Assembly: GCA_963995505.1 (NCBI GenBank)
Contig: OZ023182.1
Span: forward strand, 10,160,707-10,224,706
Source of the DNA: Hypericum androsaemum
Taxonomy: Eukaryota > Streptophyta > Magnoliopsida > Malpighiales > Hypericaceae
Direction of reading: 5' to 3'
Length of the DNA: 64,000 nucleotides
A model generated the notes under the pieces. That model had not been told where the DNA came from. It was given only the letters and a program-made list of their open reading frames with translations, and did not search any database. Both the position numbers and the translations under genes were made by a program. Positions 15,321 through 44,753 of this stretch are shown in pieces (position 1 is the first letter of the stretch; every line of letters begins with the position of its first letter).

Positions 15321-15511
15321 CGGACAAGGAGATCTCGAAGCCTGTTTCCTTCCTCTTTAGTGGGATCGGAGATCGGATATGAGAGAGAGAGAGAGATGAG
15401 AGAATGGTGGGAAGAAGAAGATGGAGGAGGATGAGGAGGAAAAGGGGCCGGGGGGGCGTTAACTACTAAAAAGAAAGAGGAAAGGAAGTCGCCGTTCAAT
15501 AACAACAACAA

Positions 15512-15774
15512 CAACGCTTCTTCTTTCCAACTTCGCCTTTGACTTTGATTGCACCCAGACCGGATCCAGTCCACGCGCCCACGCCCACCTTTTGCGATTT
15601 TTCTTGTTAATTACTCTTTTCTTTTTAAACGTGTTTCTAGAATTACAATACACCAACAATTCAATGCATCAACTCAAGTGATTATAATTTCTAAAAGAAA
15701 CGTTTAATTAAATTTAATCCCGAAGCCGGCCTATCACCACTTTTTTAAGGGGAGAGGCTGGCCCCCACTCCTCT
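15512..15774. repeat. Left part of a tandem-duplicated unit, interrupted by the MULE
   Basis: This segment just upstream of the ALIS gene recurs at 26341-26603 in the same orientation with only a few differences. Its continuation appears after the MULE at 25895-26337 and recurs, uninterrupted, at 26604-27045. The order is therefore A-[MULE]-B-A'-B', a direct duplication of about 0.7 kb whose first copy was split by the transposon. Confidence 0.85.
15767..15774. repeat. Target-site duplication of the 10.1 kb MULE, left copy
   Basis: actcctct precedes the left TIR and follows the right TIR at 25895-25902. It occurs once in the uninterrupted paralogue (26596-26603). A 9-bp reading (cactcctct) is equally possible because the right TIR ends in C. 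Confidence 0.85.
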
Positions 15775-16072
15775 GGGTTTTTTTTCTTTATGGTGTTACT
15801 ATTCACCCTTTTTTGTGAAAAAAGTGTCCGAAATGAAAGTATTGCGGGGACGGTGTCCACGTGGCACGGACGCCGGAAAAAGTCGGATCTTGGTCCAAGA
15901 TCCGACCGTTTTTCTCGGATGATATATCCGACTAAAAAAGTCGGATCTTGGTCGATAGGCCATATATCCGAAATCTGAATAGGAGATTTCGGATATGACC
16001 AAGATCCGACATTTTTTGTCGAATTTATCATATTGGTCCAAGATCCGACTTTTTTTGTCGGATCTTGGTCCG
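15775..16072 (+). repeat. Left terminal inverted repeat of the MULE
   Basis: Inverted match to about 25594-25894. The outer part reads GGGTTTTTTTTCTTTATGG and onward. The inner half contains several short palindromic modules made of aagatccgac, a T-rich loop and gtcggatctt, each able to form a hairpin. Confidence 0.9.
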
Positions 16073-16148
16073 CTATAACAAGATCCAACAAAAAAAGTCG
16101 GATTTCGGTCCATATAAACACCAAAATCTGACTTTTTCCGTCGCTCAG

Positions 16149-16628
16149 ACTCCCGTCCCCGATATCGCCGCTCCCCGCTCCCGCTCCCGCTCTCCCCGCC
16201 CCCGCCCCCGCTCCCGCCCCCCGCCCCCCGCCCCCGCCCCCCGCCCTCGCTCCCCGCCCCCGCCCCCGCTCCCCGCCCCCCGCCCCCCGCCCCCGCCCCC
16301 GCCCCCGCCCCCGCTCCCGCCCCGCTCCCCGCTCCCCGCCCCCCGCCCCCCGCCCCCGCTCCCCGCCCCCGCCCCCGCTCCCGCCCCCCGCCCCCGCTCC
16401 AAGCCCCCGCCCCCGCTCCCGCCCCCCGCCCCCGCTCCCCGCTCCCCGCTCCCCGCCCCCCGCCCCCCGCTCCCCGCCCCTGCTCCCCGCTCCCCGCCCC
16501 CGCTCCCGCCCCCGCCCCCCGCCCCCCGCCCCCCGCTCCCCGCTCCCCGCCCCCGCCCCCGCCCCCGCCCCCCGCCCCCGCTCCCCGCTCGCCGGCTCGC
16601 CCGCCTCTCGGTCCGGCCCCCGACGTCG
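16149..16628. repeat. Extreme C-rich/G-rich low-complexity tract
   Basis: About 480 bp made almost only of CCCCCGC, CCCCGCT and related units on the plus strand, so G-run units on the minus strand. It reads through as Pro/Arg/Ala- or Gly-rich in several frames, and I treat it as non-coding. The minus strand has many closely spaced G-runs suited to G-quadruplex formation. It is in sharp contrast to the AT-rich DNA on either side and lies between the left TIR and the PMD gene. Confidence 0.9.
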
Positions 16629-16639
16629 TATTAGGTAAA

Positions 16640-16800
16640 ATTTTTTAATTAGTTAATTTTTTAATTAGTTAATTGTGAATGTTAGTTAATTGGTTAATTG
16701 TTGTTGTTAGTTAATTGGTTAATTGTTGATATTTTTTATTTTTGAGGGATGTTAATTGTTGATGTTGGTTAATTGTAATTTGTAGATAATTGGTTAAAAA
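16640..16800. repeat. TTAGTTAATTGGTTAATTG short repeats
   Basis: Degenerate units of ttagttaattggttaattg with spacers occur between the GC tract and the GACCGG repeats inside the MULE. Probably leader or subterminal DNA. Confidence 0.6.
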
Positions 16801-17020
16801 AAATTTGGTCCGAATGGTGCGACCAAAATTTTGGTCTGACCGGTCTGGCCAAAAAATTGATCAGACCAAATTGACCGAAAAATGGTCCGACCGGTTTGAC
16901 CAAAAAATAGTCCGACCGGTTTGACCGAAAGATGGTCTGACCGGTTTGACCGAAAGATGGTCCGGCCGGCCAGTTTGACCAAAATAAGGTCCGAGTGGTT
17001 TGACCGTTAAACAATGTGAC
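16800..17020. repeat. Left subterminal GACCGG-containing repeat cluster
   Basis: About seven to eight units of roughly 22-26 bp contain ggtc(c/t)gaccggtttgaccaaaa. A related but tighter cluster with the same GACCGGT core lies at the other end of the MULE (25117-25215). Paired subterminal clusters suggest transposase-binding sites (inference). Confidence 0.7.
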
Positions 17021-17163
17021 CGTAATATGGTCTGTAATAACGCTATTTTAATTAATTTTTTGATTAATGTTCTAATTGTTCAATGTTTAACATTGTTGGA
17101 TTTGCTAAGTTTGTTAATATATTGGTATATAATGTTCTAATATGTCTATTGTGTTGTTTAGAT

Positions 17164-20014
17164 ATGGATGCACAGCCATACGGGCATTTTCTAGGGAATG
17201 GAGGACCCTTAGATACGTCGGTATTAGTGCACCAGGATGTGCACCGTTCTCAGGACGTGTGGAACCGTGAGGTTCGTGAAGGGATTAACGATAATCAGGA
17301 CACATTGTTGAAGATACACCGACGGAAATGGACGGTGTCTCATGTGCAGAACGAGGCCTTTATAGCCTATATGAAGGAGGCAGGTTTCTGGGATGTTTGG
17401 TGTATTGGCTGGGTCGTTCTCGAAACAGCATTTGTTACAGCCTTGGTGGAGCGGTGGCGGCCCGAGACCCATACGTTCCATATGCCTGTGGGTGAGATGA
17501 CAGTTACTCTTCAGGACATTGCTGTGTTGTTCGGGCTTCCTATCGATGGTCACCCAGTAACAGGGTTGCAGACACCTCCTGATTGGCACGAGTTCTGCGT
17601 ACGCCTATTTGGCAGTAACCCGGCAGATACCCCTGGAATGGTTTGGAAAAACCAAATTGCCCTTAAATGGTTCGAGGACCATTTTGACCCTGCTACTATC
17701 CCAATTGATGCTGGTGATGAGGTCGTAAAACGATATGTTCGAGCGAACATATTGCGACTTATCGGATGCATTCTTTTTCCCGAGTCTAGTGATGCCAGGG
17801 TGAACACATACTGGTTGCCACTTCTAGAGAATGTAGAGGCAATTGGTTCTTACAGCTGGGGTAGTGCGTGTTTGTCACACACGTACAGCCATTTATGTAG
17901 AGCCACAAGCTCGACACGTTCACTTATTGCCGGGGCGATGACGCTAGTATGTATGTGGGCTTGGGAACGGATCATCCCAAATCGTCCGGTTTTGTTAAAT
18001 CCGGCAGTGCAACAACCTGGGCAAGCACTGGGCATCAGGTACAAATTATTACTTAATGCGCTGTAGCCGCTGATTAATCTTATAGAATTGACGTGATATT
18101 TTTATGTCACTGTGCAGGTGGAGTGGAAAATTTAACAGAGCGGCCAGCAAAAAAATAACAACCGTATCTGTTTACAGACGCAGGTTGGATGAGCTTAGAG
18201 AATCAGATGTAAGTAATTTGTTTATTAAATTTTAATGAATAGTTTTGACTTAAATCATACTGTGTTGCATACATATAACCATGACCATTTGGACGAGCTA
18301 CGACTGTGTGCATTTGTTACAGGTTGTATGGATGCCGTATAACGACGAGATTCTTAGCAATCTCCCGACAATATGCCATCGTGATTGTGGCTTATGGTTG
18401 GCACGAGTCCCGTTGATATGCTTTTTGCATGTGGAGTGGCATTATCCTGATCGGGTGTTACGACAGTTCGGATTACTCCAGGGTATTCCGGCTAGCCCTG
18501 AGATCGATGAGGCGACACATAGTGCGGTGGATGGTCGGGGTCAGGTTGGCCAAAATTGGAATGCTATTTACGAAGGCCATGTGAAGATCTGGGTGGAATT
18601 TCGGACAAGATATGTGTATCACGGAGTACCTACATCGCCGTATATCCATTATCATGATGGATATATGGATTGGTACAGGAAGATTACTCGGCGATTCATC
18701 AGCCCTGCTAGCGCAATGTTACATATGAGTGTAAGTAAATTTAGCTATGTTAAATAAAGATGTTGTCTATTTTAATTTTAATAGCGATGTTCCACAATGC
18801 TAATGATAATAAAATTTTATTTGTAGGCGGATGTTGTTGAGCATATACGCCACAGGTCTTCAGACATTTCAGAAATTCAGAATTTGTCGCAGGTTGCACT
18901 TGGGTTCGCCGGCGAGCAAAGACGGTACCTAGGTCTCCGCGACAGCCAGGCACCTGTGGGACTGGCGGAGCACATGACATACGATCTTCCTCAATCAGAG
19001 AGGGTATCTGTCGTGAGACGCAAAACCACCCTTTTCAACAAGCGGCAACCAATACCCCGGCCTGAGCTCGTACCTGGTTATCAAGTGGAGCCCATGGTCT
19101 GGGAAGATTATCGGTCGAGATCGCAGATTCCAGCAAACACAGTGACGTCTCTCAGCATGGATACCTCCGCCTCTCATCCATTCTCCCAGCACACAGATTT
19201 TGGCACCCCCGGCTCCGCTTCCCAGCCGTCCCACCAGCACTCGAGTTACGGCCTAGCCCACACTGGGGTGCCGCATTCCCAGCTGTTTACTCCCCCTGGG
19301 CAGAGGTATTTGTTTATCTTAATGTGTGGTATTAATTATGAATTTTATTACAATATGTTCAATTGTTTTGATTTCATTATTATATAAATTTTTGGGTTTG
19401 TTATTAGGGGTGTTCTCATTGGAGACGGTACAACGGCAGCTAGGTCTGTGCAGCCGTTTTCTTACGGACTGGGCCCTTCCGGATCGGGTTTCGGCGTCGC
19501 CCCCTCCGCTGCTCATCCATTATTCAGGGAAAATATATTTGGTTGGCCCCAAACTGGGGCTCATACGTCTGACACGCAGTCCAGTTTTGGTTTGACCAGG
19601 TCTGGTGTACAGACATCCCAACTATTTGAGACACCTACACAGAGGTTGGTTCTCTACAATCCAACTGTGTGTAAATTATGAATTTTATTTAAAAATTTTG
19701 AATTGATTGTATGGCTTTATTGTGTTGATAACATAATTTGTTGATTTTGATAAATTTGTATGATATTTTATAATAGGACTTCGCCACGTGATACTACAAC
19801 TCATGGTAGTGGTGACTCTTCATTTGACGATCCAACCGATTTTGAGGATGAAGAAATACCTCTGGTCCGGCGTCAGCCTAATCGGGGAGCTAGAGAGGCT
19901 GGTGTGCGATGTTTTACAGGAGGACACCTGAATGTGCCTGGAAAGGGAAAGGGGAAGGCGAATGCTCACGCAGATAAGCATCAAAAGGAGAAGCCTCAGA
20001 AGAAGAAGAAGTAG
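17164..20014 (+). CDS. Plant mobile domain (PMD) protein of the MULE
   Basis: Six exons (17164-18038, 18118-18208, 18323-18730, 18827-19305, 19408-19644, 19777-20014) join in consistent phase to 775 aa. The N-terminal two-thirds matches the plant mobile domain, as in MAIN/MAIL1 and related proteins: TLQDIAVLFGLPIDG, a long helical segment with YVRANILRLIGCILFP, SYSWGSACLSHTYSHLCRA, and VVWMPYNDE after exon 3. The C-terminal third is low-complexity: Ser/Pro/His-rich with repeats around HPFSQHTDFG and HPLFRENIFG, an acidic patch, and a lysine-rich end KKKK that could serve nuclear localisation. PMD proteins occur both as host genes acting in genome stability and silencing and as transposon passengers. 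The start is the first ATG giving a sensible N-terminus; an upstream in-frame ATG at 17083 gives a hydrophobic extension I consider untranslated. Confidence 0.85.
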
Positions 20015-20312
20015 TTTATGCTTCTGTACTAGACATTCGTTGGATGCTTTTATGACTGTATTAACTTCACTTTTTTTATGATTTGTGTTTTAGTTCTCGA
20101 AACTTTTCAAACGTTATACCTTTCTAGATAAGTATGCCGTCAAGATATTAAACAAAGTACGGTATAAGGAAATACGACATGACAAAACTAAGAAGTGCAA
20201 TACTAAAATAGGATGACAACAATCTGAAATAACAGATAAAAAAAATGTCTTTATGTTTCTCAACACGTTGTCACAATTCTCATCAGAATTCCCGGTAGGG
20301 ACATATTTGCCA

Positions 20313-22047
20313 CTATTCCTTGAAAACTCGTTTAACATTCTCGTGATCAACACTGAAATGTATTCGATTTTCTTCATACGAGACATAAATCTGTTCAAAA
20401 AATACGTAATTAGGTCAATGATTATATTAAAATAATTTACTGACGACGATGTAATGATAATATAAGCTTACATCTTTCACTAGCAACACACATCCATCAC
20501 AGTAGGTACTCTCAATGTCTTGTAAACTCCCCGTGATTTTGCCAGTAGGATCCTTCATAAATTTATAGATATGAAGTCTTTGATAATTAAAAAATATGAT
20601 TAAGAAATAAATAATATATTATATTATAATACCTGAAAAACTGCTCGGAAACTATTGCCGTATACATGTTTCTTCTTTTTCACGTACAGAACCATCTGCA
20701 AGTCTCTTAGTTAACAATAACATTACTTGCAAATTGCAAAATTTTCATATATGTACAAATGTTACCTGTGGAATTGTGATGCTTTCAGAGATTGTTTTTA
20801 CATCCTCAATAGATACTCCATCAACGTTAGCTCCATACATCAAACCTAAAAAATTTAAAAATTAGATACTCCATAAATGTAAGTAACAAGTATGTATAAG
20901 TATTTTCGTAATACCGTGAGATAGAACAAATTCAATAGCTGTTGTCCATGGTTCATTGTTGAAAATGTCATTGGCTTTGCGGTCTGCTTCAGCTCGTATG
21001 GCTTTCCTTCGAAGGGCTGATTTAGCTTCAGCTTCCTTTTTATGCAGCTCTAACCTCTTTTGTTCTTGGAGCCACTCAAAGGCCTCTGAGCCATATAGTG
21101 CCTTCAAATCGGCACCACGTCCCTCAGGATATGGTGCTGGAGGATAAGGACGACGACCATCATAGGATGGTGCTGGACGAGTTTGTTCTTGGGAATCTTC
21201 ATCAGATTCTCCATTTTTCTTGAACACTTTGACCACGTTCTCATCAGTAATGCTAAATAATTTGTTGTTCGGGTATGGGGACGAGTCAACTTTTACCTGT
21301 TGAAGAACCAGAAAATCAGTAAACAACTATCTGGGACTATTGAGGAAAAAAAAGGATATGCTCACATTTTTAAGATACAACACACATCCAGCTTCAACAA
21401 GACCGGTAGAGTCAATTATGGTACCAGTAATACTGCCTGTAGAATCCTGTAATATATTAAAAGTTTAAAAATTATCTCACATAACATAAATATGTAAGAA
21501 TAAATAAAATTCTTTTAATTGTACCTTTAATGTCGCAAGTGCGCCAATTCCGACACGCTGAAAACGGGTCACCTCTACAACCATCTACAAGCAAATACAA
21601 AATACTTGTTATAAAATTGACTATGATGCTAACTCAAATTAAAGGATAATGTAAAATTTCTTACCGACATAACTGTAGTACCACTATAGGTATTTTTGAA
21701 GCTCTGAATACTTGTCCCTTTAAAACAGGTTCCTATCATCATCCCTGTAAAATAAATTAAAATTTAATAAAAATATTATGTGATCCAATATAGAAATACG
21801 GAATACCTTCAACTGTCAGAAAGTCCATGGCTCTACTCCACGGTTCTGGATCTCGCTTGACAAGCTTGTAATAACAGTTGCTTTTGGTAGGTTTCTGAGG
21901 AGGGACTTCTGATCTATCGTTGGATGGCCTCTGTAATCGTTTGAAAATATACCCAAACTTAGAACCACATAGAGCATTCCAATCAATTTGAGGATGCTCC
22001 GGCTCTTCGTCATCATGTGCGATTGGCTCTTTGCCACTTCTCCTCAT
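20313..22047 (-). CDS. Tandem OB-fold protein, HROB/DUF4539-like, carried by the MULE
   Basis: Nine exons (22047-21807, 21744-21665, 21584-21525, 21446-21366, 21296-20915, 20845-20766, 20695-20633, 20552-20472, 20390-20313) give 381 aa. The protein has two repeats, each with EPW..A..F, then a strand-rich part: LKDSTGSITGTIIDS, EAGCVLYLKNV and ITDENVVKVFKK in repeat 1; FQDPTGKITGSLQDI, CDGCVLLVKD and VDHENVKRVFKE in repeat 2. This pattern matches the OB-fold of HROB (homologous recombination OB-fold protein, which supports the MCM8-MCM9 helicase) as I know the family. Intron positions and phases match between the repeats. Between them lies a charged, probably helical linker. The role in transposition is unknown; ssDNA binding or repair of excision or insertion gaps is an inference. 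The start ATG at 22047 is the first in the exon and less certain than the rest. Confidence 0.65.
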
Positions 22048-22225
22048 TGGCACACCTGAACAATTATGACAATAAATATATACATAAAATGTGTAATGCG
22101 TCATTATTCTGCTAAGATAGAGTAACTTAAACTTCAAACTGTTACAAAGAAACTCAACACAACCCACATAGAGTTTCACAAAATATTACAAAGTACAATC
22201 CTTTCAGTTCAAAATTAATTACAAT

Positions 22226-24901
22226 TCAACGTCCACGACGGCGTCTACTCGTACTTGCCCCTACGGATACAGCTGCCGCTTTAGCTGCTTTAGCCGCTCT
22301 TGCCGCCGCAACTGCTCTTATATTAGTACAATTGGCTTTTGTGTGACCCCTTGTTTTACAGAGCGTACAACGGACGAAAGGCACTGTATCCATTTCATTA
22401 TGTATGCGCTTCCGTGGCTGTCCTCTACCCCTCGCTAATCTTTCATCTGGAATGAGCCTTACAACCGTAGGATCTTCAGGATACGGCCAATATTTAGGAT
22501 TGCCCAGAGGAACAAACTTCAGTTGGTAGCAAGCTTGTGTGGTTTCCAGGCGATAATACTTATCCACAAATATCTTGTAATCGATGCCAAGTTCAGTACA
22601 ACACGCCATCACATGTGAGCACGGATAGTGGTAAGCCTGGAATTTGCCGCAGCCACAAAATCCTGTGGAAAGATTAACTGAATGCTTTCTGTCCCCCTTT
22701 TGTCTTCTCATATCGTACCCAGTGCGAACTTCGTACGATCCAACTGTACTGTCAGAAACTCGCACTCTATGTCCATTGGCCTTTCCCTCCCACCGCTCCA
22801 ACCTGTTTAGGAGCCTCTGTGACATCAATATTTTGCCAGTACAGCTCTCTTTCATACACTTAGTTGATCTCTCTTCAAAATATTCGGTTAGCTTGTTAAA
22901 TGTCTCTGCCACCAAGGCCGTCACCGGTAAACGACGAACTTTTTTGAAGATCATATTTACGCACTCGGCAAAATTCGTCGTCATGTTACCATATCGGCGT
23001 CCGCCATCCCACGCTAAGCTCCACTTGGGCAATTCCTGTTCATACATCCAGTTGAAGACCTCCTGGTCGACATTCCATATTTCTCGCATGTTAGCTTCCA
23101 ACTTCCACAGTTGAGCTTGCATTCCTACAACCAACATAGTAAAAATATTAAATGTGGAGTAACAACTTGTAAAATAGTTTTAGACTACAAAACATTTGTG
23201 CATGTCACCTGCAATCTTCATGACATTCCTCATGGCGTCGTTTTTGAAGTGTTTGTTAAGATTGCTTGCTACGTGTCGAAGACAATATCGATGGGCGGTA
23301 TCACTGTCTTCTCCCCAACCATACTCCGTATTCATTGCCTTTAATATGCCAGCATGTCGATCAGAAATAACACATATTCCATGTCGGCCAGGCGTGACGT
23401 ACTTCCGGACTTGTTTCATGAACCACGGCCAACTATCCGTGTTCTCACCCTCTACCAGAGCAAATGCTATTGGAATTATAGCATTATTACCATCAATTGC
23501 AGTGGCGATCAGGAGGACATGCTTGTATTTTCCATACAAGAACGTTCCATCAATCTCCAAGACAGGCATGCAATGTTTGAAAGCTTCAATGCAAGGCTTG
23601 AAGCTCCAAAAAACTCGCTTAAAGATCTTTGTTCCAGGAATTAGTGCTTCCACGTAACCAGGGAGGGTGTGATAATATTCCCATTCAACAACAGTTCCAG
23701 GATTATTTGCCTTGCATGCTGCAAACCATTGCGGAAGGCGATTGTAAGATTCTTGCCAATCCCCCCATAAATCTTGAAACGCCTTCTCTTTTGCCCACCA
23801 AGTCTTCGTATACGAGGGTCTAAACTTCATATGGTCGTGGATCTCTGACCTTAAAGTGGCCACACGAATTTCTGGTTGCTCCTCTACTCGTTTCTTAATA
23901 ATTTGTGCAATGAAAGCAGAAGTGAGTTGTTTATGATCCTGCGACTTTCGTAGGCGACCACAGGTATGTGGGTAGGTGTGTTTCATGATTTTCCATGGAC
24001 TGAAAAGTGTGCCCCTTCTTTCCTGTGAGACACGGATCTCCCATTTGCAATCATCAGTCTCCCATTTTTTACACTTCACAGAAAAAGTTTCTGGCCTTGT
24101 TTCTTTTCGGACAAACTCACGCCCATCGTTCATTACGAACGCCTCGATCTCCCTCTTTGCATCAAATTTGCTCTTCCAAATCGTACCCTCTTTCAACAAA
24201 CCAGAACAACTTCCATCTATTGCTCGGTCGCAATCCCATTCTTCACCATAAACAGTCATCGATGATTGTTCACCGGGATCAGTTAGAGCGAGTTCACCGT
24301 ATTGTTGTTCTCGGTATTGTTGTTCCTCTTCTTCTACTACTTCTTCTTCATCTTCGTCTTCTTCTGCTTCATTTTCGTCTTCTTCTGCTTCGTCTTCGTC
24401 TTCTACTTCTTCTGCTTCGTCTTCATGATCAAAATTGTATGTGGCATATGGACCCGTCTCTCTAGGATCATTTTCAAACCAATCAAATATTGGTTCATGA
24501 GCAACATCCATCCCCGTTGACGTACCAGCTTCAACGACAAACGGGTTGTAATTATTAACCCTCTTTTCCACAATGATTGTAAGCTTAATCTCCTTCACCA
24601 TTGGTCCAAAGAAGTTAATCATGGTCTCCAGCATTATCCTAACATCTTCATCGTCGTTAATAAACATTGGACCAAATTGTCCTCTTCCAAATGGACATCT
24701 AAATATCAATGGCCCAAATTCTTCATTTGGACCTATTGGGATCTTTTCGTTAACTTTTTTCTGCAAGATATTGTATCTAACAAATGCTGCATGAAACTTC
24801 AACTTCTCTTTCCTACCACCTTGGTAATCAAAACCGGTTTCATTGTTGTTGAAAATTACTCCATCGTATTTCAACTTTATTCTTATAACCCGGTTAGCCA
24901 T
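22226..24901 (-). CDS. MULE transposase (MURA/MuDR type)
   Basis: Two exons (24901-23209, 23124-22226) give 863 aa. Order: an N-terminal domain of about 120 aa with an Ile/Val-rich PB1-like look; a very acidic stretch (about 158-195); a MuDR-type DNA-binding part with conserved Cys/His (VKCKKWETDDCKWEIRVS, HTYPHTCG, about 240-320); the MULE catalytic domain; a SWIM zinc finger (C721, C723, C733, H735); and a CCHC knuckle (C817, C820, H825, C830). The catalytic acidic residues are likely D451 (LEIDGTF), D514 (VISDRHAG) and E618 (NFAECVN). The C-terminus is Ala-rich, then RRRRGR, a possible nuclear signal. No stops or frameshifts, so potentially active. It lies upstream of and in the same direction as the OB-fold gene, with about 180 bp between them. 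Confidence 0.93.
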
Positions 24902-25116
24902 TATGAATACTACAACAAAAGAAAACAGTATGCAATTCTATATTAGCAACACAAAACATAATTTATATTAACGAAAATATCATATAAACATACATTCTTC
25001 TCCATCAATTTTTTGGTCCGAGACCACCTTAAGAACCAGATGAAATTTAATCGGACTGGCAGGGTGGTCACTTTTTGTACTCGACCATCCGGAATTTACC
25101 AAGAAAAAATTCACAA

Positions 25117-25215
25117 TCTGACCGGTCCGACCGGTCCGACCGACCCGACCGACCCGACCGGTCCGACCGGTCCGACCAGTCCGACCATTCCGACTCATTA
25201 AACCGGTCTGGCCAT
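25117..25215. repeat. Right subterminal GACCGGTCC repeat cluster
   Basis: About nine tandem 10-bp units of the form gaccggtccg/gacccgaccg, followed by a degenerate ccggtctggcc. Similar in core to the left cluster at 16800-17020. Confidence 0.75.
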
Positions 25216-25242
25216 TGGGGTTGGTCAGTTTATAAAATTCGC

Positions 25243-25475
25243 ACACCCACAAAATTTTAAACAATCAGATATCACACTCAAAAAATATAAGGAATTAATA
25301 ATTTCAAAAGCTAACATATACTAATTATTTTTAATTAATGAACAAACTCTACATATATACACCCACAAAATTTTAAACAATCAGATATCACACTCAAAAA
25401 ATAGAAACAATTAATAATTTCACAGCTAAAATATACTAATTATTTTTAATTAATGAACAAACTCTACATATATAC
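25243..25475. repeat. Tandem duplication of about 116 bp inside the MULE
   Basis: Two nearly identical adjacent copies (25243-25358 and 25359-25475), each starting acacccacaaaattttaaac. They lie between the right subterminal cluster and the right TIR. Non-coding. Confidence 0.85.
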
Positions 25476-25593
25476 CAAAATATTAAAGTAAATTAATTTA
25501 CCTGGTTTTGGGCAGGGTCTTCTATGGTGGTACGCAGGACGTCTTCGTATGGATGACAAAAGGCTTCTGCGAGGTATCCATTATATAGGCGAT

Positions 25594-25894
25594 ATGACGA
25601 CCAAGATCCGACCAAAAAAGTCGGATCTTGGACCAATATGATAAATTCGACAAAAAATGTCGGATCTTGGTCATATCCGAAATCTCCTTTTCAGATTTCG
25701 GATATGACCTATCGACCAAGATCCGACTAAAAAAGTCGGATCTTGGTCATCTGACAAAAAAAGTCGGATCTTGGTCCAAGATCTGACTTTTTCCGGCGTC
25801 CGTGCCACGTGGACACCGTCCCCGCAATACTTTCATTTCGGACGCTTTTTTCACAAAAAAGGGTGAATAGTAACACCATAAAGAAAAAAAACCC
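25594..25894 (-). repeat. Right terminal inverted repeat of the MULE
   Basis: Inverted copy of the left TIR with the same palindromic aagatccgac modules. It ends in AAAACCC immediately before the duplicated actcctct. Confidence 0.9.
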
Positions 25895-26337
25895 ACTCCT
25901 CTCCCGTTCCAATTCCATGATCCCATCCCATCCTGATTAATTTTTTTTTCTATTTCCTTTTCTTTTTCAAGAATATACTTAATTGTAGTTATTGTATTGA
26001 ATATTTCCAAGTCTTGCATTTGTTGGGGCTTGGACCAGGACCCAGCCGACCCCCTTCTTACAATTTTTTTTGGAAAAAGTACACGTAAGAATTGATATGT
26101 GTTTTAAAATTTTAGATTTGGTTCTTGTGATTATTTTTTTAGATAGTTGACGTCCTACTTTGATGATTTTTTGTTTAAATCGTTGCTGACACGTATGGAG
26201 TAACGACTGTTCCTCGCTGAATTAACTTTGTTCCTAGTTCAATTCCTAACTGCAACTGCTAATTATAAATTAATGATAAATTAGTTCTAGAATAAATCCA
26301 CAACCGCAAATCATCCAAGAACAATAATAAGTACAAG
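25895..26337. repeat. Right part (B) of the MULE-split duplicated unit
   Basis: It begins with the second copy of the target duplication and matches 26596-27045. One visible difference is a roughly 10-bp indel near 26090 compared with 26790. It is followed directly by the second copy of part A. Confidence 0.85.
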
Positions 26338-26340
26338 AAA

Positions 26341-27045
26341 CAACGCTTCTTCTTTCCAACTTCGCCTTTGACTTTGATTGCACCCAGACCGGATCCAGTC
26401 CACGCGCCCACGCCCACCTCTTGCGATTTTTCTTGTTAATTACTCTTTTCTTTTTAAACGTGTTTCTAGAATTACAATACACCAACAATTCAATGCATAA
26501 ACTCAAGTGATTATAATTTCTAAAAGAAACGTTTAATTAAATTTAATCCCGAAGCCGGCCTATCACCACTTTTTTAAGGGGAGAGGCTGGCCCCCACTCC
26601 TCTCCCGTTCCAATTCCATCCCGTCCCATCCTGATTAATTTTTTTTCTATTTCCTTTTCTTTTTCAAGAATATACTTAATTGTAGTTATTGTATTGAATA
26701 TTTCCAAGTCTTGCATTTGTTGGGGCTTGGACCAGGACCCAGCCGACCCCCTTCTTACAATTTTTTTTGGAAAAAGTACACGTAAGAATTTCACGTTGAG
26801 GATATGTGTTTTAAAATTTTAGATTTGGTTCTTGTGATTATTATTTTTAGACAATTGACGTCCTACTTAGATGATTTTTTGTTTAAATCGTTGCTGACAC
26901 GTGTGGAGTAACGACTGTTCCTCGCTGAATTAACTTTGCTCCTAGTTCAATTCCTAACTGTAATCGCTAATCATAAATTAATGATAAATTAGTTCTAGAA
27001 TAAATCCACAACCGCAAATCATCCAAGAACAATAATAAGTACAAG
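26341..27045. repeat. Uninterrupted second copy of the A-B unit (empty MULE site)
   Basis: Contains part A' (26341-26603) joined directly to part B' (26604-27045) with a single actcctct at the junction. It documents the pre-insertion target sequence of the MULE. Non-coding: fragments of the ALIS upstream region and AT-rich DNA. Confidence 0.85.
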
Positions 27046-28668
27046 GAATAAGTAAATGCTATTGAATTAAATTGAATAACCAAGATCTTCACAACCAAAA
27101 CCTGGGTCTCCTCTCTCGACTCGACCTAGAGATTTAGTTCCTCATAATCTTGGCAAAGACAAAATATCAAAAGTATTTGTTCTTTGGAATAAAAAGGTCC
27201 CATCTAAAATAAGTCTAGAGGCTTATATATAAGTCCTCCTAACTCTAAAAACCTACAAGGGTCGTCCACAGAGTCTTAGGCGATTAGAAATTGAATTTCC
27301 AAAATTGCCCCTTAAAATTCGCTAATAATATTCTGCCAGACCAGCCTTCATTATTTTGGTCGTATCTCCCTTGTCCAAGCTCCGATTTACTCTAATTCGG
27401 CTTTCAAATTGACCAAAATACCCTTCCAAGTCAGCTGTTCTTGCTAGACTCCTTCTTCAAGTATAATTCCTTTCCAAAATTTTCTCCTTTTCCTACAATT
27501 TAGCACAAAGAACTCATTAGTCACCCAAAACTTAAATGTTGACTAAAATGATACTAAACTAAAGACAATAGTGCAAAAATGACTCAAAATTCTATGTGTT
27601 TAATGCGCGTTTTAGACACACATCAAAACTCAAGTCATTTACAGTCCCTTTTTAGTCCAAACAACAATAATGAATTAAAGCAACAACAATATTTTGCAGG
27701 AAGCAAGAAAATTAGCAATTCAGAGTTCTGAGTTTTGGGGATTTAGGGTTTTGGTAAATTGGGAGGCTACCAGACTAAAGAAGAGGGCGAAGGAGAACAG
27801 ATGAGTGTGGAGGAGCGCCGAGGAAGGGGATTTAAGTTTTGGGGTTTAGGAATTTAGGTTTAGATTTGGTATTTAACATGGAGGGTGGATGGAGAACGAG
27901 CGGAGGAGAGGGCAAATGAGGGCAAAGGAAGGTGGCGAGACGAAACAACAAAATTAATAGTTGAAAAGGGGGAGGGAGAACTTACCGCTGGAACTTCCGA
28001 TGGCGCCGGGGCAGTACATGAAGATTTTCACTACCACCGCTCCTTTAGATTTCCACCATTCACAATGGCTTTCTCCCTTTGTTCTGGGTTCTTCTCTGTT
28101 CTTACATTGCCAGAGATCGGAGACGACGAGCAGAGGGGAGAGCCGGAAGGAGGCTGTTTGAGGAAGAACGAGTCTTTTGATGGGGTATAGACTGAGGGTT
28201 GGTTGGACTTGTTTCATCTACTTTAGAGAGAGGAGAGAGATGGAGGGGAAAGGGAAGAAGAAAAGGGATTATTTTGAATAAAATGTAAACTAGTGTGAGA
28301 TTCTTTCAAAGTTTTTACTACGACACATCAGCAACAGCTGGGTAAAACATTTCCGAGATGGCTTGCCACGTAGGGCATAAAATGTCGCTGTTTTAATTTT
28401 GGGCAGAAGGAGCTGTCTGTGAGATCCTTTAGAAAATTCAGGGACCCGTTTTAGAAGTTTTTTATCACATGGTTGAAAGTGTAAATCGGCCAAACTTTCC
28501 CGTTTTATTGGAACTCCCTTTCTTACACATTTGGAGCGGACGACAGCTCACTCAACCCCCTATCACACTGCGCTGCATCTATCATCTATTCAGTGACGTC
28601 AACACCTGGCTCAATAAACCACCGACTCTTTTTTTTTTATCGGGAGGAACAAGAAGAAGAAGCTCAAA
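27046..28668. other. Spacer with possible decayed LTR; upstream region of SSADH gene
   Basis: 27.0-27.65 kb has features seen in Ty3/gypsy LTRs read on the minus strand (a tatataag TATA-like motif near 27225, the gcgcgttttagacacacatca edge near 27605-27625), but no TSD or internal domain was found. From 27.7 kb to 28.67 kb the DNA contains short frames (for example 27885-28190) without a domain. The region just before 28669 is presumably the SSADH promoter and leader. Confidence 0.35.
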
Positions 28669-39803: not shown

Positions 39804-40006
39804 TATTATGGATCCTTATCTTCTCATCTGGTTATTTGTATTCAAACCGATCCCGCGTGATCTTTAGTTTGTAAAGTTCAAAGTTCAATTTATAATTAGC
39901 TAATAGTTATTACTAGTAGTGGTTGAATTGTAATAGGAGTCTACTACAATGTTGTATTTATTAGCGTTTGATCAGTAATGAGAAGGAGTGGCATACATTT
40001 TCTTCA
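39804..40006 (+). repeat. Left LTR of the copia element
   Basis: Starts tattatggatcc and ends ttttcttca. Near-identical to 44551-44753. Confidence 0.9.
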
Positions 40007-40018
40007 TGGTATCAGAGC
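40007..40018 (+). promoter_or_regulatory. Primer-binding site (initiator Met tRNA)
   Basis: TGGTATCAGAGC abuts the left LTR, the standard minus-strand primer site of plant copia elements. Confidence 0.9.
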
Positions 40019-40082
40019 CGAACCTGGTTTAAGTCCACACAAAATTAGCCTACCTATCGCAAAATTAATTCCCTACCAAAAT

Positions 40083-43000
40083 ATGTCATTGGATGGCACT
40101 AACAGTTCGGGTACCAATCTCCCGGACCATGGTGATGTTATTGCTGTCCCAGTACCAATCAATAGTGTGGATTCGTCATCACCATACTATTTGCATCCGT
40201 CTGGTCATCCAGCTCAAGTTTTCGTCTCGGAGCAATTGCACGACGGAAATTATGGCGAATGGGTGATAGACATGAGCGACCTCTTATTCGCAAAGAATAA
40301 GTTTGGTTTTGTCGACGGCTCGTTGTCACGACCTCCTCCAGATTCCGGCGATCTCAATCATTGGATTCGAACGGGCCACATGATCAAAGGATGGCTTCGA
40401 AACTCAATGATCAAGGAGATTCGAAGTAGTGTTCGTTGTGCCAAGACAGCTCAAGAGATTTGGGCTGACATCTCTGAGCATTTTGGACAAGGAAGCGCTC
40501 CCCGAGCTTATGATCTACGGAGAGCGATTTCACTCCTTCGTTAGGATCAAATGACTGTTTCCGCTTATTACACTAAATTAAAGGGTCTTTGGGATGAGGT
40601 TCAAGCAATACGACCTCTACTAAAGTCTTCTTGCACTAATTGTGATCATGAAATGCAGAAACAGATATTGAAGATCCGTGAGGAGCAGCTCTATGATTTT
40701 CTGATGGGACTAGACGACGTATTCAATACTGTCAAGTCACAAATCCTAAGTACACAACCTATTCCAAGCCTACGTCAAGCCTACCACCTTATAGCCCAAG
40801 AGGAACAAAGGCGAGTGATCTCCTCAGCGAGGAAGTCGACGCCGGAATCTGCTGCTTTCAATTTTAGTTCATCGCATTCGGACTCTTCTAGGGGTCTTGG
40901 AAATCGGCGATCCAACAACAACAATGGAGGCAGTGGTAACAACAATAATAATAGACCCAAATGTACCCACTGTCAGAAAACTGGGCATACCGAGGATACC
41001 TGTTATGAGCTCATTGGGTATCCGGATGGGTGGAAAAAAAGAGGCCGTGATAATCAACGACGTGGTCGTGATGCTGGAAGTGTTGGTCGTGATGCTGGTG
41101 CTAGGGTTCCTCCTAAGGTGGCACAAGTTCGCAGTGATGATACTCCCGTTCCAGGATTTACGCAAGACCAGCTGGCGAGTCTTATGCGACATTTCGGGAT
41201 CAAGGAAGAAGCCAATGGCAGTTCATCCACGTCATTGACTGAAAATTGTGCAAATATGGCTGGTAAGAATTTTTATTCTCGACCTTGGGTCATTGATTCT
41301 GGAGCGACCGACCACATTACTTGTCATTCCGACTGGATGAATGATTCTCTTCGCGATCAAAATCATCCTCCTGTCAAGATTCCCAATGGCGATGATATAC
41401 CTGTACAAGGGATCGGTACAATTGATTTGTGTGATAAATTGCGTCTTGATCGGGTCTTATATATACCAAAATTCCAATGCAATTTATTATCAATTAGCCG
41501 ACTAACAAGGGATCTAAATTGCATGGTTATTTTTCTGGCTGATGTTTGTGTCATACAGGACTCGGCTTCGAGGAAACTGATTGGAGCGGGTAGGCAACGG
41601 GACGACTTGTACTATTTTGAAGACGTGCGAGGGGGTTCAGCATTTTCGACAGTGCAGGTCAAGGATGTTGCAATTTGGCATCAAAGGCTGGGGCATGCTC
41701 CCATTACAAAGTTGTGTCAGATACCGTTCTTGGATTTCTTGTCTTTTCCAAATAAGTTTACTCATTGTGACTCTTGTGTTCGGGCCAAACAAACCCGCTT
41801 ACCCTTTTGCAATAGTTCAATTCAAACAATGACATACTTTGAATTAATACATTGCGATGTTTGGGGTCCATATAAGACTCCGGCTTCATATGGTGCTCAT
41901 TATTTTCTAACAATAGTCGATGACTTCAGCAGAGGCATTTGGACGTATCTAATCAAGTATAAATCCGATGTCACTCGATGTTTACTTGCATTTTTCCGCA
42001 TGGTCGAAAGGCAATTTGGATACAGAGTCAAAGGAGTTCGATCTGACAACGGGATGGAGTTCCGATCCACAGAACTACTTCAATATTATGAGAGCAGTGA
42101 GATTATTTTTCAGACGAGTTGCGCCTATACTCCACAACAAAATGGAGTCGTCGAGCATCGTCATCATCATATTCGTGAGGTAGCACGATCTCTTCGATTT
42201 CAGTCACATTTACCTATTAAATTCTGGGGTGAATGCGTACTTGCTGCTACCTACATAATCAACCGTTTGCCATCTTCGGTGCTTGATTGTAAAACTCCGT
42301 ACGAAGTAGTCTATGGAAAGTTACCATCGTATGACCATTTTAGAGTATTTGGATGCCTGGCCTATGCTCATAATCACACGAGAACTGACAAATTCGATGA
42401 TCGGAGCAAGCCGTGTGTTTTTGTAGGGTATCCTCTTACTCAAAAGGGGTACCGGCTTTATGATATATCTGCAAATAAATTTTATGTGACCAGAGATGTC
42501 ACGTTTGTCGAAGGCAATTATCCCTACAAGCCGGAGATGATATCCGATTCTATTAAGAATGCACATGGATCTCAGGTTATTAATTCAAGAATTGCTTATG
42601 ATCCTGTTGAAGTGGGTGGTGACAAAACTGTTGAAATGGGTGGCGACAGAATTGTTGATTCAAGAGGTGATTTTGATCCTGTTCAATTGAGTAGTGACCA
42701 AGTAATATCTATTAATCCAGAAATTACGCAAGTGCCACCAGAACCAGTAATTAGAACTAATCAATCGGTCCCGATACCAAAGCATGCTCCTACCCCAGTT
42801 TCAACTCCTCCACGACGAAGCACCAGAAATAAGCATGTTCCTTCCCATCTTTCTAATTATGAGATCGAATTACCCCCCTCGTACGTCGTCCCGTCTGCCA
42901 ATCCCGTTTCAAAAGGTAACCTCGTGGCTCATCCTTTGACGCATTACATTAGTTATGATAAATTTTCCGCTGCTCACCGGGTATATCTAACCACTCTGGT

Positions 43001-44543
43001 TTCCCACCATGAGCCTCGTTATTATCATGAAGCAGCTAAATCTCCATGTTGGAGAGATGCCATGCGGAAGGAGATTCAAGCTCTCGAAAAAAGTGAAACG
43101 TGGGATATCGTTGCTCTCCCGCCTGGCAAGAAGGCTATAAACTCGAAGTGGGTTTATAAAATAAAATTTAAGCCAAATGGTGACATCGAACGATACAAGG
43201 CCCGATTAGTTGCTCGTGGTTTTAAACAAGTCGAAGGTATTGACTATCATGACACTTTTGCTCCTGTTGCCAAACTAGTATCCGTTCGGTATTTACTTTC
43301 TATTGCAGTAAAGAAAGGCTGGATTATTCAACAATTAGACGTTGATAACGCCTTCTTACATGGCAATTTAACTGAAGAAGTATTCATGAACATTCCACGA
43401 GGTTTTGCTCGGCCTGGGGATAGGCGAGTTTGTCGACTCCGAAAGTCGCTCTATGGCCTTAAGCAAGCTTCTCGCAGCTGGTACAGCAAGTTTACTGCTA
43501 CACTTTTGGCCCTTGGTTTTCGGCGATCTAGGGCAGATTATGCCTTATTTATTCATCATCGTGGGAATCTCGTCTTATTTCTACTAGTGTACGTGGATGA
43601 CATCATATTAGTTGGAGATGATCTCGACATGCTTCAGCACACAAAGACTTACTTGGATCGTTCTTTTGGTATAAAGGATCTTGGTGTCTTGAAGTATTTT
43701 TTGGGGATCGAAGTCGCACGCACACCGGATGGACTTGTTCTTAGCCAACACAAATATCTACTTGATATACTTAATGAGTGTGGCCAGCAAAATTCTCGGC
43801 CAAGTGCGGTTCCTATTGAGCAAAACCACCGCTTGGAAAGGATGGGCGAAGTCGCTGACGATGCCACTCGCTATCGCCGCCTAGTTGGTCGATTGATGTA
43901 TTTGACTGTTACTCGACCCGACATTGTTTACGCGGTCAACATCTTAAGTCAGTTCGTTGATAATCCAAGCCCGGCTTACCTTGATGCTGCAGATAGGGTG
44001 CTTCGGTATCTCAAAACAACTCCCGGACAGGGCATATTGTTGAATAAACAATCAAGTTTCAATCTGGTTGCCTATTGTGATGCTGATTGGGCAGGGTGTC
44101 CCATGACTCGACGATCCCGTAGTGGTTATTTTGTCACTCTTGGTGGTTCTCCAATTTCTTGGCGAAGCAAGAAGCAAAGTGTGGTGGCCCGTTCGTCCGC
44201 AGAAGCTGAGTATCGAGCAATGGCGGTGACGGTTAGTGAAGTGCTCTGGCTTCGTTGGTTACTTGGTGATTTTGGCGTTAGACAATCGGGCCCGACCCCT
44301 CTCTTTTGTAACAATCAAGCTGCATTATACATTACTCAGAATCCAGTCTACCACGAACGTACGAAGCACGTGGAGATGGATTGTTATTTCGTTTGGGAAC
44401 GATCTATTTCCAATGACATTTCTCCTTGCAAGATCAGTACCACGAACCAATTAGCCGACCTGTTTACCAAAGGTCTTGGAGCTGATCATTTCTGCACACT
44501 TGTTTCCAAGTTGGGTGTTGTTAATCTGCACTCTCCAACTTGA
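40083..44543 (+). pseudogene. Copia gag-pol polyprotein, interrupted by one in-frame TAG
   Basis: One reading frame from the ATG at 40083 to the TGA at 44541-44543, broken only by TAG at 40542-40544. Domains in order: gag of the UBN2 type, CCHC knuckle (CTHCQKTGHTEDTC), aspartic protease (WVIDSGATDHIT), GAG-pre-integrase (WHQRLGHAP), integrase core with acidic residues in HCDVWGP and RSDNGMEF, reverse transcriptase with YVDD (LLVYVDDIILVG), and RNase H (YCDADWAG, AEAEYRAM). Apart from the stop, no frameshift was seen. The TAG lies inside gag, upstream of the zinc knuckle, so it is more likely a disabling point mutation than a recoding signal; the flanking codons do not resemble known plant readthrough contexts. 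Annotated as a pseudogene for that reason. Confidence 0.88.
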
Positions 44544-44550
44544 AGGGGAG

Positions 44551-44753
44551 TATTACAGATCCTTATCTTCTCATCTGGTTATTTGTATTCAAACAGATCC
44601 CGCGTGATCTTTAGTTTGTAAAGTTCAAAGTTCAATTTGTAATTAGCTAATAGTTATCACTAGCAGTAGTTGAATTGTAATAGGAGTCTACTACAATGTT
44701 GTATTTATTAGCATTTGATCAGTAATGAGAAGGAGTGGCATACATTTTCTTCA
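44551..44753 (+). repeat. Right LTR of the copia element
   Basis: Matches the left LTR; preceded by a purine tract and followed by the second gttcc. Confidence 0.9.

Follow-up and report, generated by a model that had tools for sequence, protein, structure and literature searches.

MULEs are abundant plant DNA transposons whose ways of gaining copies and whose accessory gene roles are still largely open. Those carrying an antisense PMD gene are described and common (PMC6446971, Table 1; PMC5418596), which agrees with the statement of the initial annotation that some MULEs carry PMD genes. In plants they correspond to groups 42 and 45-50 of Dupeyron et al. 2019, where group 42, MULE-Solanaceae_1, is given as 'unknown ORF and PMD (antisens)' (PMC6446971, Table 1), and an anti-silencing role of the MULE-borne PMD has been offered as speculation (PMC5418596). 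VANDAL21 encodes three proteins, of which VANC is reported to remove methylation and to bind short motifs within non-coding tandem repeats (PMC5735166, PMC10398659). Human HROB contacts MCM9 through its OB-fold and still binds ssDNA when the OB-fold is deleted (PMC11055865); the whole protein (also MCM8IP) binds ssDNA and RPA1 (PMC7290032). HROB homologues are broadly present in land plants according to section 3.2 of PMC11675949, a section in which transposons are not mentioned. A literature search judged by titles and the starts of abstracts, with most subscription journals outside its scope, yielded no paper linking HROB, DUF4539 or PF15072 to transposons. The association of a MULE with an antisense PMD gene is the known part of the locus described here, and the HROB-like gene within a MULE may be the new one.

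The window (the whole 64-kb stretch of DNA that was analysed) lies on contig C3 of a 385-Mb genome. It contains a MULE at positions 15775-25894, that is, 10,120 bp between long TIRs with three intact gene models inside. The features of the element and its borders are as follows.

15767..15774, no strand: left copy of the TSD, ACTCCTCT, 8 bp
15775..16070, + strand: left TIR, about 296 bp, beginning GGGTTTTTTTTCTTTATGGTG
16832..17006, + strand: array in the left non-coding part, its units about 25 bp long and containing GGTCCGACCGGTTTGACC
17164..20014, + strand: PMD gene, 6 exons (17164-18038, 18118-18208, 18323-18730, 18827-19305, 19408-19644, 19777-20014), 775 aa
20312..22047, - strand: tandem HROB-type OB-fold gene (OB gene), 9 exons (22047-21807, 21744-21665, 21584-21525, 21446-21366, 21296-20915, 20845-20766, 20695-20633, 20552-20472, 20390-20312), 381 aa
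22226..24901, - strand: MULE transposase gene (MURA), 2 exons (24901-23209, 23124-22226), 863 aa
25120..25194, + strand: array in the right non-coding part, built of 9-bp GACCGGTCC units
25599..25894, - strand: right TIR, inverted counterpart of the left one
25895..25902, no strand: right copy of the TSD, ACTCCTCT, 8 bp
26326..27051, + strand: tandem copy of the flank with the empty target site at 26596-26603 (278 bp at 97.8% and 463 bp at 94.2%)

Aligned over 298 columns, the two TIRs showed 93% identity (E about 1e-125). They are flanked by a direct duplication whose length is ambiguous between 8 and 11 bp owing to the adjoining CCC/GGG, and symmetric TIR ends would make it 8 bp; both the TIRs and the 8-11 bp TSD are those expected of a MULE. 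A segment of about 0.7 kb occurs in two tandem copies (25884-27051; 15498-15774) that are 94-98% identical, one of them harbouring the element and the other corresponding to the empty site. The initial annotation had described a single TIR element with a TSD and three intact genes, and this description held, with TIRs at 93% identity, an 8-bp TSD, an empty site and three gene models, all of which were built from splice signals and homology alone. Short repeat arrays of the GGTCCGACCGG type (also written GGTCCGACC) lie close to both ends and are possible binding sites of a protein of the element. Their core motif GGTC[CT]GACC occurs seven times on the + strand of the 64-kb window, all seven within the element. 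The left TIR is separated from the PMD gene by a C-rich minisatellite of about 440 bp (16168-16604) made of CCGCTCC / CCGCTCCCCGCCC units. Elsewhere in the window, at 39804-44753, lies a retrotransposon named Copia-type by eye, with end repeats of about 203 bp that are 96% identical and an open frame of 1330 aa.

The transposase matched the MULE domain PF10551 (E 1e-18, 68 bits, cut-off 27.6) and the SWIM zinc finger PF04434 (1.2e-5, 25.2 bits, cut-off 19.6), with a CCHC-type zinc-finger match falling below the cut-off. Since this frame is full-length, the element is not a Pack-MULE, which would carry host gene fragments and no transposase. The PMD protein matched PF10536 (E 1.4e-76), and its gene lies inside the TIRs, antisense to the transposase, as in PMD-bearing MULEs. 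At G000:C8:16594889-16673436, the PMD model was matched over its full length (1-347) eight times within 80 kb, with hits on either strand; unlike this cluster, the MULE-borne PMD genes match the model exon by exon.

The OB gene sits between the other two, on the strand of the transposase, and starts 178 bp past the transposase stop. Its product matched PF15072 (HROB) over two stretches (E 5.2e-16, 58.8 bits, cut-off 30.8). Scanned singly, unit 1 reached 34.5 bits and unit 2 28.2 bits, the latter just under the cut-off of 30.8. The two units share 36% identity (E 1e-21), and their alignment score exceeds the mean of 2000 shuffles by 31 standard deviations; they have four intron positions and phases in common, and in both the OB-fold is preceded by a segment EPW..A..F....G. 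This architecture, two OB units in 381 aa, is not that of the HROB family, whose members have a single OB-fold within a long protein that is mostly disordered. The absence of any relation to HROB had been set beforehand as a ground for rejecting this reading of the middle gene, and the profile match was significant; the tandem HROB-type identity proposed for the 381-aa protein thus stood, as did the combination of a PMD protein, an HROB-type OB protein and a MULE transposase within one element (PF10536, PF15072 and PF10551 matches). In the 178 bp before the gene (22048-22225), an acceptor-like TTCAG/GTGT was seen 8 nt upstream of the OB start codon in both the window and the diverged locus L015, with a GTAA-type donor candidate upstream; this site may mark an intron in the 5' UTR or splicing that begins in the transposase transcript.

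Beyond this profile, relatives of the OB protein were scarce in the collections searched. In the protein database, none of 2309 candidates sharing words with it matched at E <= 0.01, and none of 876 candidates matched an alignment of the two units at E <= 10. We recovered no credible match among solved structures (best E 0.73) and none in NCBIfam. A scan of IMG/VR returned 11 pattern matches, none of them a relative. With the transposase as query, the protein database, which holds plant proteins, yielded 334 matches at E <= 0.001 (3312 candidates); among the 120 transposase homologues listed, 11 models also matched the PMD protein and none matched the OB protein at E <= 1. The control of the Pfam search gave one match, below the cut-off, in Bacillus subtilis.

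Searching the genome with the OB protein, we scored at least 94 loci (882 candidates), and in 83 of them the matched stretch, which covers roughly one third of the protein, was free of stops. These loci were compared with 150 scored MULE-domain matches (of 736 candidates) and 117 PMD matches (of 858 candidates), the PMD set leaving out 18 second pieces of genes already listed. At least 67 of the 94 OB loci had a PF10551 match within 4 kb, in all 67 cases upstream and on the same strand, and at least 43 had a PMD match within 6 kb, always downstream and on the opposite strand (43/43). Among the matches listed, at least 39 of the 94 loci had both neighbours and 23 had neither, the latter figure counting against the view of a fixed gene set. 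The family model PF15072 itself gave 40 matches in the genome at E <= 0.001. None of the 40 lay within 5 kb of a listed OB locus of the window type, nor within 10 kb of a listed MULE match, and the latter result likewise weighs against this view; six lay within 10 kb of a listed PMD match, where about 0.6% each was expected, and five of these six were oriented as in the window element.

Regions were drawn for 127 MULE-domain matches, of which 20 were fetched as such and six with other bounds. Among these 26 loci we found 10 close siblings and two diverged relatives (L015 and L029), and the other 14, as well as all eight short loci, had no match to the window transposase at E <= 1e-4. Nine of the 10 siblings (about 9.9 kb read for each) contained all three genes in order within the stretches fetched. 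The OB frame was open across nine exons in six of them (L009, L010, L011, L012, L025 and L028), and was broken or missing in four, with stops in the older copies L022 and L031, a deletion in L013 and no OB gene in L014. The transposase frame was open throughout in L011, L012, L014 and L025. Apart from L010-L013, where the bounds of the fetched stretches cut the PMD gene, no sibling with a PMD gene had it open at full length. The sibling L014 (2665-7503) is an internal-deletion derivative with both TIRs, an open transposase frame and an 8-bp TSD of its own (CACTTGGT), and has neither the OB nor the PMD gene, as would be expected if the OB and PMD proteins act in trans. The existence of many near-identical copies would be at most an indirect sign of active transposition. 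The middle gene is thus no one-off capture: it is present in nine of 10 siblings, at no fewer than 94 loci, in the diverged L015 and, at the adjoining stretches L038/L039, beside a decayed transposase.

The diverged copy L015 has the gene order of the window element, with a single-unit OB gene on the transposase strand and matching intron positions. Its transposase is 65-71% identical to that of the window and its PMD pieces 45-75%. It is a dead copy, with five stops in the aligned transposase, five in the PMD gene and, as read by eye, a frameshift in OB exon 2. Between the window and this one diverged and itself decayed copy, the dN/dS of OB unit 2 was 0.44 (153 codons, bootstrap 0.27-0.66, 0/500 replicates >= 1), and that of OB unit 1 against the single L015 unit was 0.58 (0.29-0.96, 4/500 >= 1). 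A rougher count, made without bootstrap, gave 0.36 for the transposase and 0.38 for the PMD gene. As far as codon comparison can tell, these values show one OB unit to have been under selection against amino-acid change between two lineages, and, by the rougher count, the transposase and PMD genes as well. The changes common to the close copies of the OB gene, two non-synonymous and one synonymous, were too few for a selection test.

Other loci indicate how the OB gene may have evolved. L029 had transposase and PMD matches and no OB, class II or class III match, so that MULEs of such a kind exist without the OB gene. L038/L039 are adjoining stretches of contig C14, the ends of the element lying outside the stretches read. 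They contain a diverged and decayed transposase piece with 40% amino-acid identity (515 columns) and 69% nucleotide identity (1556 columns), followed by a damaged single-unit OB gene on the same strand and then by two HROB-like genes, one per strand. L035 and L037 contain a head-to-head pair of HROB-like genes, and L036 only a fragment of one (class II). Searched by tblastn with the window transposase and 120 homologues (E <= 1e-3), none of these three loci showed a transposase. Such head-to-head pairs of class II and III genes (L035, L037, L038) are apparently multi-copy, class II scoring best with the HROB model. Among the OB domains compared, OB unit 1 had its best score with the plus-strand gene of L035 (240, versus 171 with unit 2) and OB unit 2 with L015 (290). 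Each unit thus has its own best partner, and the tandem protein seems to be the union of two OB types that are also found singly, rather than merely a very recent duplicate of one unit. Single-unit, tandem-unit and decayed three-gene loci coexist in one genome, which suggests that an HROB-type gene placed after the transposase, on the same strand, diversified there.

The anatomy of the element, its high copy number and the retention of its gene order in one diverged lineage are direct observations. We lean, with some reserve, towards the view that this MULE is intact and was amplified recently, and that its family has a fixed trio of genes, for a transposase, an HROB-derived OB protein and an antisense PMD protein, the OB protein being a trans-acting helper of amplification. 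The OB gene seems to be a functional component of the transposon and no accident, and the diverged relative points to selection on it. By analogy with known families, the transposase would cut at the TIRs. The OB protein, for which we infer a role most likely as a trans-acting helper, would be nuclear and would raise net amplification as an accessory factor, most likely by using its OB surfaces to bind proteins of host replication or recombination where excision leaves gaps or where branched intermediates form, and the PMD protein would act on the chromatin or the transcription of the element. Since the OB-fold of human HROB is its MCM9 contact and the protein deleted for it still binds ssDNA, the argument "OB-fold, therefore ssDNA handling" does not follow, and binding to ssDNA by itself is a poorer starting hypothesis than contact with a host replication or recombination protein. 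For the window element, recruitment of MCM8-9, gap repair and anti-silencing would all be no more than analogies.

The main rival, again by analogy, is that the OB and PMD proteins form a VANC-like module for anti-silencing or gene regulation, comparable to VANB and VANC of VANDAL elements and perhaps acting at the repeat arrays near the ends; we give it a minority chance. The activities reported for VANC and the three-protein coding capacity of VANDAL21 (PMC5735166, PMC10398659) fit such a module, as do the GGTCCGACCGG-type arrays on both sides, with a core motif found nowhere else in the window, and the earlier proposal of anti-silencing for MULE-borne PMD (PMC5418596). Yet a VANC-type protein with DUF1985 and DUF287 is not what we found: the PMD protein had a non-significant match to DUF1985 (E 0.19, below the cut-off and within the PMD match) and no match to DUF287. 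Moreover, VANB is uncharacterised, and a k-mer count at the ends of L015 gave no array comparable to that of the window element.

That the OB protein is a direct mimic of HROB, recruiting or blocking the host MCM8-9 helicase in the repair of the excision gap, seems unlikely to us. At the position that we would tentatively equate with the MCM9-contact phenylalanine of human HROB (F553), unit 1 has D and unit 2 has S, as read by eye, where L036 has F, which would speak against a mimic, although a MAFFT alignment of the OB domains places this loop less clearly. On its side are the PF15072 homology and the facts that human HROB, whose OB-fold contacts MCM9, activates MCM8-9, and that MCM8 and MCM9 occur in most plants (PMC11055865).

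Less probable still is that the OB gene is a passenger, that is, a host gene that a MULE picked up (transduplication) and that has multiplied by hitchhiking while serving no purpose for the element. Host gene capture by MULEs is known (PMC6446971), and the broken OB frames of L022, L031 and L013 and the absence of the whole gene from L014 and L029 could be explained in this way. Against it, position and orientation are kept in the diverged element with a dN/dS below 1, the matched piece is open in 83 of the 94 loci, and further HROB-like genes stand beside another transposase. An artefact of assembly or annotation, or a host gene that came by chance to lie inside a MULE, to which gene models based on splice signals and homology might lend some colour, can practically be set aside given dozens of loci in identical order, clean TIRs, TSD and empty site, and a diverged relative.

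Returning to the trio with a trans-acting OB helper, it could be taken one step further: a branch of plant MULEs would have taken up an HROB-type gene, duplicated and diversified it, and would use it to steer host recombination at excision gaps such that cut-and-paste ends as copy gain, a scenario that we consider doubtful as a whole. A selected, element-borne relative of a homologous-recombination factor would offer a concrete handle on how MULEs gain copies. Our results also suggest that some of the HROB-like (PF15072) genes in plant genomes belong to transposons, a point of importance for surveys in which these genes are taken to be orthologues.

Among known systems, plant Helitrons with RPA-like genes are likewise DNA transposons carrying an OB-fold gene, of the RPA type; they belong to another superfamily with a rolling-circle mechanism. 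The mudrB protein of maize MuDR differs from the window OB protein, and the gene set of MuDR is different. MuDR (mudrA, mudrB) resembles the window element in being a MULE that has an accessory gene beside its transposase (PMC6446971). The window OB protein shares its PF15072 OB-fold with HROB (MCM8IP, C17orf53), but it is transposon-encoded and has two OB units in 381 aa, and any contact with MCM8-9 would be by analogy. Human HROB is 647 aa long. VANDAL21/Hiun of Arabidopsis (VANA, VANB, VANC) resembles the window element as a three-gene MULE with accessory proteins and short repeat arrays in its non-coding parts, whereas the window element has no significant DUF1985 or DUF287 match, has long TIRs and carries an HROB-type gene instead. 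The closest likeness in gene content is with the PMD-bearing MULE groups, which, as tabulated, have a SWIM transposase, a PMD gene that is often antisense and, in several groups, long TIRs (PMC6446971, Table 1). The 'unknown ORF' of MULE-Solanaceae_1 may be the same gene in the same arrangement. The window element differs from these groups, as described there, in that its extra gene is identified, as a tandem HROB-type OB-fold protein.
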